Positions 18,960 through 50,163 of a DNA stretch of 64,000 bases are shown here, piece by piece (position 1 is the stretch's first letter; each line of letters begins with the position of its first letter). Source of the DNA: Tolypothrix sp. PCC 7910. GTDB lineage: Bacteria > Cyanobacteriota > Cyanobacteriia > Cyanobacteriales > Nostocaceae. The stretch spans positions 4,713,501-4,777,500 of the forward strand of contig NZ_CP050440.1 in the NCBI RefSeq assembly GCF_011769525.1. Direction: 5' to 3'. Below the pieces are notes generated by a model. It was not told where the DNA came from, ran no database searches, and worked only from the letters and a program-made list of their open reading frames with translations. The translations under genes were made by a program, and so were the position numbers.

Positions 18960-18969
18960 AAAAAAGGGA

Positions 18970-19434
18970 AAGAGTTGGTAGTAAGCCGGGTTCTGTTCTC
19001 GAATGTAGAAATGTTACAAGTAACTTCTCTACATGAGGGCGGTTATCTATCTGGGACGTTTGTTACCAAACGCCTCTAGCGGCTCTGTTTTGGCGGAACT
19101 GGTAAAAGACCAACCATAGTTCCTTTCGCCTTGCTCCCAACCGGGGTTTACCGAGCCAACGCCTCTCGACGTTGCTGGTGCGCTCTTACCGCACCTTTGC
19201 ACCCTTACCAGAACTTAGGGATTGGGTATCAGGGATTAGGGATTGGGCAATTTCTTCCCCAGTCCCCAGTCCCCAGTACCTAGCTCCCAATCCTGGCGGT
19301 ATCTTTCTGTGGCACTATCCTCACGATCGCTCGCACTGGACGTTATCCAGCAAGTTTGGTCTTTCGGGAGCCCGGACTTTCCTCAAATCAGTTTTTGTGA
19401 CTGATCTGCAACCGCCTACGCCTACTCTCTCCCT
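18970..19434 (-). ncRNA. rnpB: RNase P RNA (bacterial type A)
   Basis: About 465 nt, read on the minus strand, ending at a run of T after CCCGGCTTACTACCAACTC. Diagnostic conserved blocks are present in order: GAGGAAAGTCCGGGCTCCC near the 5' side, the GCGAGCGATCGTGAGGATAGTGCCACAGAAA segment (CR-II/III region, quoted in overlapping parts), GGTAAGGGTGCAAAGGTGCGG, GAGAGGCGTTGGCTCGGTAAACC and the 3' strand of P4 ending in CAGAACCCGGCTTAC. The RNA is the catalytic component that trims tRNA 5' leaders. The P12 region (19216-19294) is expanded by heptamer repeats. Exact ends are estimated by comparison with the known cyanobacterial form. Confidence 0.95.
19216..19294. repeat. Heptamer repeat insertion in RNase P RNA helix P12
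   Basis: AGGGATTGGG / AGGGATTAGG units on one side and CCCCAGT units on the other are largely complementary, so they extend a hairpin rather than disrupt the RNA. Such STRRs in rnpB have been described for heterocyst-forming cyanobacteria. Confidence 0.88.
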
Positions 19435-45506: not shown

Positions 45507-45911
45507 TTTGTCTTTTCTCCTCACACCTTGTATAGATAATTGTTTTCGTTGCACCTAATTCTCAAATATGCGACATCTTTCTTAGGGCCTTTCGATGAGG
45601 CATAGTTGCCACTACTACAATTCTAGTTTTTGCGAAGCTAATAACCGATTAACTTGATGTTAAATATTGATGGAATTAACTTATGCAAAAACACACCTTC
45701 ATAGCATATCATTATAAAACATCTTAGGCAGATGACAACATCACAGCGATCGCCTAAACAACTGTCACACCAATAACCTAATCTATTTCTTCTGGGAGTA
45801 GCTTTAGAGAATTTACTAAATTTCTATTTACCTAAGTAGTAAGTATGAACTACGTACGCCAGAATGCATAAAAATTAGTTTTTTTCTTCTACCTCCTGTA
45901 TTTTTTCAGGT
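45507..45911. other. Promoter region of the porin gene
   Basis: 405 bases upstream of the porin on the minus strand. It contains a HIP1 site and a GTAGTAAGTATGAACTAC stretch (45837-45855) whose GTA/TAC half-sites do not have NtcA spacing. No gene seen. Confidence 0.5.
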
Positions 45912-46193
45912 TCAGTTAATTTGGGAAATTACCTCTGCTAGATGAAAATCTTTTGACGTTAAACCACCAGCATCATGCGTGGTTAATTGGAGTTTCACTT
46001 TGTTATAGGAAATCTCTATATCAGGATGATGTCCTGCGGACTCAGAAGGTTCCACTAATTTATTCACAAACTCAATTGCTTGAATAAAATCTTTAAATGT
46101 GCGGGTAGTCTTTAATTTCGCTCCCTCAATAGTCCAGCCTGAAATCACACTTACTTTTTCTTGAATTTCTGACTCCGTAAGTAGCTGTGCCAT
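45912..46193 (-). CDS. 4a-hydroxytetrahydrobiopterin dehydratase (PCD/DCoH)
   Basis: 93 residues. The ATG at 46193 is preferred to the TTG at 46202, with AAAGGA upstream. The catalytic core is present: FVNKLVEPSESAGHHPDIEISYNKVKLQLTTHDAGG in pieces, including GHHPDI with the two catalytic His and the later His in TTHDAGG. It dehydrates 4a-hydroxypterins and so recycles pterin cofactors; in photosynthetic organisms a role in molybdopterin or RuBisCO assembly has also been proposed for relatives. It lies downstream of the structured RNA unit, past that unit's terminator. Confidence 0.93.
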   Translation of the reverse strand: MAQLLTESEIQEKVSVISGWTIEGAKLKTTRTFKDFIQAIEFVNKLVEPSESAGHHPDIEISYNKVKLQLTTHDAGGLTSKDFHLAEVISQIN

Positions 46194-46340
46194 ATTCAAC
46201 AATTCCTTTGTTGTAATATTTGGGTACTTTTTATCTTTTAGAGTGCTACTAGTATTTTTACTGCATCTATTATGAAGATTGCATAGATGCTGATTTTACC
46301 CTTTTAAGAGTTTTTGAATGCTTTTGATATTACCCACTGC

Positions 46341-46388
46341 AAAAAACTATCCGCTCTGATTTAGATCGGATAATCTAAGTCAGAGCGG
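46341..46388 (-). terminator. Strong rho-independent terminator of the RNA unit
   Basis: CCGCTCTGACTTAGAT and ATCTAAATCAGAGCGG (minus strand) pair over 16 positions with one G-T, loop of six, then ATAG and six T. It ends the RNA unit before the pterin dehydratase gene. Confidence 0.85.
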
Positions 46389-46494
46389 TCTAGTCGGGTC
46401 TTCAGGTTGCAACCAGACTGCCGGAAGGAACTCCGAGCATCAGCCTAGCTACTTGAGCTACACTTAGTATCTCTAAGAGAACTAAGGCTAACTT

Positions 46495-46566
46495 TTAGAG
46501 AACAGCCCCGGCGCACAGCCGGCTAACTGCAACCTGATGACCCATGCGTTTACTACTTTCTATCAT
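46495..46566 (-). CDS. Small ORF (23 codons) with near-perfect ribosome-binding site
   Basis: The peptide begins MIESSKRMGHQV and ends RLCAGAVL. AGGAGG lies 8 bases before the ATG, within an 11-base perfect match to the 16S 3' end, which is far stronger than at most genes in this window. A second in-frame ATG at 46572 overlaps the SD. The start codon lies in a CCCATG/CATGGG hairpin, and codons near the middle form one arm of a long helix. The peptide is unrecognised. It may be a real product or a leader that senses translation. Confidence 0.5.
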   Translation of the reverse strand: MIESSKRMGHQVAVSRLCAGAVL

Positions 46567-46688
46567 GGGCATCACCTCCTTGTTGCCTAAGCGGTCTTAG
46601 TCTCAATAAGGCAGAGTATCTTTACTCTGGGTTTATAACCTTCATTAAATATAGCACATAAAATTTCCATAATTCACCAACAACCATA

Positions 46689-46723
46689 TAAAAAAATCCT
46701 TCGCCCAAAAAAGGCGAAGGATT
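46689..46723 (-). terminator. psbD terminator
   Basis: On the minus strand AATCCTTCGCC and GGCGAAGGATT (11-bp arms) surround TTTTTTG, followed by TTTTTATA. It starts 60 bases after the psbD stop codon. Confidence 0.92.
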
Positions 46724-46782
46724 TTGAAACATTAAGTAATGATGAATTCTAAAGGTCAATTAACTCATCATTATTTAGAGAA

Positions 46783-47838
46783 TTAGAGAGCGTTACCGCG
46801 AGGTAGAACTTCTTCAGGGAATACAAATTGTTCGTGGGGCTGATCTTGAGGAGCCATCCAAGCGCGGATACCCTCGTTCAGCAAAATGTTCTTAGTATAG
46901 AAAGTTTCAAATTCCGGGTCTTCAGCAGCACGCAATTCTTGTGACACAAAGTCATAAGCCCGCAGGTTCAGAGCTAACCCAACGATACCAATTGCGGCCA
47001 TCCATAGACCTGTGACTGGCACAAACAACATGAAGAAGTGTAACCAGCGTTTGTTGGAGAAGGCAATCCCGAAAATCTGTGACCAGAATCGGTTTGCGGT
47101 CACCATTGAGTAGGTTTCTTCTGATTGGGTAGGATTGAAGGCGCGGAAGGTATTGGCTGCTTCACCGTCTTCAAACAGGGTATTTTCGACTGTGGCACCG
47201 TGAATCGCACACAGCAATGCACCACCCAACACACCTGCAACTCCCATCATGTGGAAGGGGTTGAGGGTGAAGTTATGGAATCCTTGAACAAACAAGATGA
47301 AGCGGAAAATACCTGCTACACCAAAGCTAGGTGCAAAGAACCAGCTTGATTGTCCCAAGGGGTACATCAAGAACACGCTCACAAATACCGCAATTGGTGC
47401 GGAAAATGCCAAGGCGTTATATGGGCGGATTCCTACTAGACGAGCAATTTCAAACTGCCGCAACATGAAGCCTATTAATCCAAAGGCTCCGTGTAGCGCC
47501 ACGAATGGCCATAACCCCCCTAGCTGACACCAACGGGTGAAGTCTCCTTGTGCTTCTGGCCCCCACAGCAGCAGTAGGGAATGTCCCAAACTATCGGCTG
47601 GGGTGGATACCGCTACTGTGATAAAGTTACAGCCTTCTAAATAAGAAGATGCTAAACCGTGGGTGTACCATGACGTGACGAAGGTTGTGCCTGTGAGCCA
47701 ACCGCCTAGTGCCAGGAAAGCGCAGGGGAATAATAATATCCCTGACCAACCTACGAATACGAAGCGATCGCGCTTCAACCAGTCGTCTAGAACGTCAAAC
47801 CACCCTCTACTGGGGGCGCGCCCAACTGCGATGGTCAT
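46783..47838 (-). CDS. psbD: Photosystem II reaction-centre protein D2
   Basis: 351 residues, the family length, starting [20 protein letters not shown]. Five transmembrane helices are visible; [15 protein letters not shown] (with chlorophyll-linked His), [20 protein letters not shown] and the iron/quinone-binding region [21 protein letters not shown] in pieces are present. D2 pairs with D1 to carry the P680 chlorophylls, pheophytin and QA in the thylakoid membrane. GGAGA lies 9 bases upstream of the start. psbC does not follow, so this is a monocistronic copy, like the second psbD of many cyanobacteria. Confidence 0.98.

Positions 47839-50091: not shown

Positions 50092-50163
<72 letters not shown>

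Follow-up and report, generated by a model that had tools for sequence, protein, structure and literature searches.

A widely conserved cyanobacterial RNA found behind psbD, whose short reading frame contributes a strand to a covarying long-range helix

Between psbD (46783-47838) and an open reading frame (ORF) for a pterin dehydratase (PCD; 45912-46202) of Tolypothrix sp. PCC 7910 lies a gap in which an earlier note, made from the sequence, had recognized a self-contained, minus-strand structured RNA with a short ORF, raising the question of whether such an RNA gene exists and whether its ORF, its fold or both account for its retention. All coordinates refer to the window, i.e. the whole stretch of 64,000 nucleotides that was analyzed, which also contains ordinary genes for RNase P RNA (18967-19428, minus strand) and a tRNA (50092-50163). 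Direct reading of the sequence delineates a minus-strand unit of about 300 nt (approximately 46641-46341), comprising an extended -10 box, an 11-nt Shine-Dalgarno (SD) sequence, a 23-codon ORF, a long-range helix and a terminator, all on that strand. Its upstream border is the intrinsic terminator of psbD, found as claimed at 46725-46693 (one terminator-like site versus 0.4 expected from shuffles). The extended -10 box, TGCTATATT (46648-46656), is conserved in the aligned family sequences, with its TG, TA and last T identical across 106 of them, and points to a transcription start near 46641; a consensus scan listed no promoter at this box. Further downstream, the minimum-energy fold contains a 5' hairpin ahead of the SD (CTAAG-ACCG-CTTAG, 46600-46587), for which a crude conservation scan mixes different stems, and its result was left unused. 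The SD, AAGGAGGTGAT (46581-46571), is indeed a perfect 11-nt complement of the 16S rRNA 3' end of the same genome, which reads GGATCACCTCCTTT at both loci inspected. The ORF (46566-46495) encodes MIESSKRMGHQVAVSRLCAGAVL followed by TAA.

The predicted fold of the unit has an energy of -116.8 kcal/mol, compared with -85.9 (sd 5.2) for shuffled sequences (z = -5.9; none of 200 shuffles as low), and a version longer by one base gave z = -5.3 (none of 100 shuffles). ARAGORN found no tRNA or tmRNA gene in 45800-47000, and Rfam 15 gave no family at gathering score for the unit in the window, while among five divergent loci it gave a tRNA in one (L389) and nothing else.

A DNA search recovered the feature in 136 of the 145 genomes of the host's family, so that it is not a product of chance, and in 280 of the 388 genomes of the class; the host genome itself holds a single strong match. 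Nine family genomes gave no DNA match (G003, G013, G062, G068, G079, G110, G129, G135 and G143); of these, G079, G110 and two members of genus g13 (G013 and G062) were unmatched by the covariance model as well, and the missing matches in the others may be assembly gaps. A pattern scan of named genomes yielded at least 115 stretches, and the 80 among the matches listed all carry cyanobacterial titles, including Thermosynechococcus, Acaryochloris, Microcoleus and Okeania. The covariance model R1 matched 122 of 386 genomes sampled from the phylum, three genomes of family f34 among them, with E-values of 5e-20 to 5e-15; hits in locus L354 (E = 0.003) and genome G538 (E = 0.009) were taken as chance. 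In L354 the same extended SD and start motif (approximately 1085-1173) precedes a longer ORF, which we take to be psaL, and it looks as if this extended context also serves ordinary genes. A weak hit in the small-genome family f16 revealed a diverged version, carried by 39 of its 61 genomes (query genome included). The homology of this version is backed by a shared layout and by the presence of psbD at 10 of the 20 loci fetched; at L398 and L384 the psbD gene, which has the same orientation, ends some 140 nt upstream. One f16 genome (G199) carries two copies of this version about 5 kb apart (C1:2018484-2018642 and 2023816-2023941). Neither R1 nor the f16 query found a match in genomes of 1.6-1.8 Mb, e.g. 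G145, G170 and G242. The RNA looks very old.

The genomic contexts bear on whether the unit stands on its own. Within set distances, both psbD and PCD flank the RNA in 67 of 176 loci, psbD without PCD in 42, PCD without psbD in 28 and neither in 34, with one side too short in the remaining 5. Since the flanking genes thus vary, we regard the unit as an autonomous RNA gene, and its existence, fold and autonomy as near certain, in agreement with the self-contained character proposed for it. The order psbD, RNA, PCD is seen in an f34 locus (L353) and in the loci L357 and L369, and on this ground it looks to be ancestral.

To examine base pairing across relatives we used a set of 64 diverse sequences (A1) out of 68 selected, leaving out L148, L166, L181 and L192 with their long interiors; a mixed alignment held 82 of the 176 sequences, and repeats (L114 and L115, plus 20 from the range L116-L138) were dropped. 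The principal element is a long-range helix with its 5' strand inside the ORF (46543-46506, comprising a GGGTC closure at 46543-46539 and a covarying part at 46535-46506) and its 3' strand at 46426-46396 (closure GACCC, 46400-46396), so that codons 11-21 are joined with a 3' arm. The 16-bp helix described earlier (46543-46528 with 46411-46396) is correctly placed, though its pairing is imperfect, with 15 of 16 pairs formed and one A.A mismatch, and the conserved pairing extends beyond it to 46506/46426. On A1, double changes affect 15 pairs of the long helix, and double-changed cells number 99 versus 21.0 (sd 5.4) in shuffles (none of 500 as high), where the totals include the start-codon hairpin, which contributes no double change, and the shuffles do not keep the relatedness of the sequences. 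Sliding the helix by one to three columns leaves 7-18 double-changed cells, and RNAalifold on A1 returned 27 pairs, 15 of them with compensatory changes. What the relatives present is therefore a covarying helix and, as detailed below, a retained frame, the opposite of the absence of both that had been named as speaking against this RNA.

All five pairs of the closure GGGTC/GACCC form in 140 first-set sequences out of 141 with a script-found terminator, in all 11 such f16 sequences and in 8 of 10 further divergent ones (the script found no GGG in 3 of 176), with exchanges to GGGTT/AACCC (L351 and L352) and GGGTT/AATCC. On A1 it has moderate support, with 8 double-changed cells versus 2.6 and pair types not above shuffles. 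Part of the same sequence can pair elsewhere: a start-codon hairpin, GCCCATG/CATGGGT (46570-46540), with near-invariant outer five pairs, brings together CCCATG (46569-46564) and CATGGG (46546-46541), and bases 46543-46541 are common to it and the long helix, just as had been pointed out. The near-invariant GGGU(C) can thus pair either with the GCCC ahead of the start codon or with the GACCC at the 3' end. A model with two alternative states is attractive but not proven, because the hairpin has no double change in the 64 sequences of A1 and its 5' side is lost in L358 and L359 (one lineage). Its inner two pairs fail in 14 and 6 of these 64 sequences, and in L353 CCAAT/ATTGG replaces it, by eye one possible compensatory case.

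The unit ends in a terminator (46394-46341), which a consensus scan did not list but which is nonetheless conserved in relatives. Its hairpin and T-run had been noticed before; the stem is interrupted, reading ACTA-GA-CCGCTCTGA...TCAGAGCGG-A-TAGTTTTTT, i.e. a triplet pair, an internal loop of GA (CA in 34 sequences, GG in 3) opposite A, and then the stem proper. Of the 162 sequences scored, 150 have CTA/TAG as the triplet, 11 have CGA/TCG and one has CCA/TGG, and f16 sequences outside the terminator rule show further pairs by eye, e.g. CAA/TTG in L389. This rule picked up no terminator in 32 of 176 sequences, in 8 of the 18 divergent ones and in 9 of the 20 from f16; by eye, many of these retain the motif but differ in the T-run. 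Apparently, another terminator takes the place of CTAGACCG in loci L361-L367, L174, L184, L186 and L191, which still have the SD and the ORF as well as the 3'-arm core.

The ORF is no less persistent. The motif GGAGGTG[AG]TG[CT]NCATG occurs in all 176 loci, which were picked by similarity, and the constancy of the start codon is partly by construction, the ATG being part of the search motif. The ORF has 23 codons in 167 of these loci, 24 in seven and 25 in two (one of them, L064, via a frameshift), and ends in TAA in 118, TAG in 56 and TGA in 2; the 23-codon frame described earlier is thus upheld in relatives. Between distant lineages, extra codons, which were listed by eye, arrive in multiples of three in several of the lineages. 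Shorter forms of 17 aa are found in L356, L357 and L360, in the f16 version and in two of three loci titled Thermosynechococcus (L210 and L257; L265 has 23 aa), and in L357 and L360 the helix bases run on past the early stop. Type I toxin mRNAs, which encode a hydrophobic toxic peptide and have an antisense RNA, were considered as well; the peptide here is polar by eye and, as a short query of 23-26 aa, matched no Pfam or NCBIfam family up to E = 10.

What, then, is the ORF for? The earlier note suggested a translation-sensitive switch or a dual-function small RNA, each a candidate reading here. As had been remarked, translation of the ORF and the long helix make use of the same bases. A translating ribosome thus has to melt the conserved helix. 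On this basis we tentatively put forward, as a reading with something short of an even chance, a riboregulator or small mRNA gated by translation, where translating the ORF would itself set the state of the RNA: a ribosome within the ORF would melt the long helix and free the 3' arm, the RNA would close when ribosomes are lacking, and the peptide of 17-25 aa could be a second product. Ribosomes would melt whatever pairing lies within the ORF of an mRNA, so the shared bases alone are no proof of a gate. A narrower form of this proposal, to which we give less credence, is a sensor of ribosome availability about as old as the cyanobacteria, where the near-perfect initiation site would load ribosomes onto an ORF that mainly serves to open the helix, so that a partner can reach the 3' arm, and whose peptide would not be needed. 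In this reading, the seemingly ancestral position behind psbD is a hint that translation may be connected with photosystem II.

The evidence on coding constraint bears directly on the alternative of a plain small mRNA, whose function would be the 23-aa peptide, with the helix merely tuning translation or stability. Its strong SD, retained frame and codon-sized indels are what such an mRNA would show, and over 67 pairs of 23-codon ORFs, with a transition weight of 3 assumed, the nonsynonymous/synonymous ratio is 0.71 (bootstrap 0.49-1.0) in frame versus 1.83 in one alternative frame and 1.85 in the other, although part of this signal may come from third positions pairing by wobble. The signal is concentrated at the C-terminal end, where a ratio of 0.37 in codons 16-23 fits a functional peptide as well; it is 0.70 in codons 13-15 but 1.14 in codons 8-12 and 1.34 in codons 2-7. 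Distinct single-step variants (20 of 46 synonymous, 59 of 152 nonsynonymous; the indels counted within the ORF come largely from the frameshifted L064) would by themselves suggest no coding constraint, and glycine codon 9 is GGT in all 143 unique ORFs (from the 167 of 176 ORFs in the codon table), as base pairing would demand. Moreover, the very end that carries the coding signal is cut off in the 17-aa forms. Since codons 2-12 lack amino-acid constraint and the C-terminal end can be lost, we favor gating by a small margin, and consider a purely peptide-centered role possible but rather doubtful.

Conversely, the strong covariation of the helix, the conserved terminator base with its GA/A loop and the nucleotide-level constraint in codons 2-12 could reflect a regulatory or protein-binding RNA with an incidental or marginally translated ORF; the SD and start motif in every one of the 176 loci, a frame kept over long distances and the frame-specific signal make this improbable. 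The leader ORF, the alternative helices and the terminator also call to mind a leader-peptide attenuator of PCD, and 96 of 176 loci indeed have a PCD gene downstream in the same orientation. PCD is not found there in 79 (one was too short to judge), and among 73 PCD-less loci whose downstream sequence exceeds 1300 nt, the first ORF of at least 80 aa is on the same strand in 59, on the opposite strand in 13 and absent in one. The products encoded in place of PCD, for which 10 of 14 extracted proteins were tested, belong to unrelated families (OprB porin, GAF/HD, YpsA-like, WD40, RTX, glucose dehydrogenase and alcohol dehydrogenase) or, in two cases, to none. With such differing neighbors and no constant same-strand downstream gene, we rejected attenuation of PCD as highly implausible.

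Turning to the literature, the claim that no known family matches holds for Rfam but probably not for published RNAs. In the accessible text of Brenes-Alvarez et al. 2016 (PMC4734099), ncl0160 of Synechocystis PCC 6803 is a conserved sRNA with 83 homologues in 89 genomes, which encodes a peptide of 23-25 aa after a ribosome-binding site (RBS), with 47 TAA, 34 TAG and 2 TGA stops, and which the authors consider likely to be translated, a view that also suits a plain small mRNA. The two groups of ORFs available here (108 and 68) predict stop counts of 49.0, 32.9 and 1.1. Given the agreement in ORF length, RBS, cyanobacterial spread and use of all three stops, the unit very probably belongs to the ncl0160 family, an identity drawn from the published description and not from comparison with the ncl0160 sequence; nine of our 176 loci differ from 23 aa, and the divergent lineages with 17-aa forms fall outside the published range. 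The covarying ORF/3'-arm helix, the GA/A terminator and the link to psbD are not described in the text available from PMC4734099. The word ncl0160 occurred in no further paper of the literature searched, listings and abstract openings yielded no functional study of the RNA, and in the parts available of PMC6202907 and PMC3219970 the sought terms stand in the reference lists only. Within this literature, four points appear to be new: the covarying helix between ORF and 3' arm, the GA/A loop at the base of the terminator, the reach of the family into f16 and f34, and its seemingly ancestral place behind psbD.

It is uncommon for a structured RNA retained across most of a phylum to have neither an Rfam family nor an assigned function, and the alignment and covariance model define this one well enough for searching. 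As ORF and fold share bases, the roles of peptide and RNA should be separable by recoding. If translation does gate the fold, the RNA would give photosynthetic bacteria a simple, built-in means of sensing ribosome activity.

RNAIII and SgrS are structured RNAs that also carry a short ORF, a combination shared by the unit. Dual-function RNAs of this type are mentioned in the accessible parts of PMC2518516 and PMC5126843. A further cyanobacterial parallel, Yfr6 of Prochlorococcus, is described in the available text of PMC1242208 and PMC2518516 as a structured RNA, 239-244 nt long, that contains a short ORF and that its authors compare to RNAIII; compared by description rather than by sequence, it resembles the unit in joining structure and short ORF but differs in its 33-aa frame starting at nt 97 and in its neighbors. 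The unit, known here from sequence alone, is set apart from RNAIII and SgrS in that the ORF itself constitutes one strand of the main helix.
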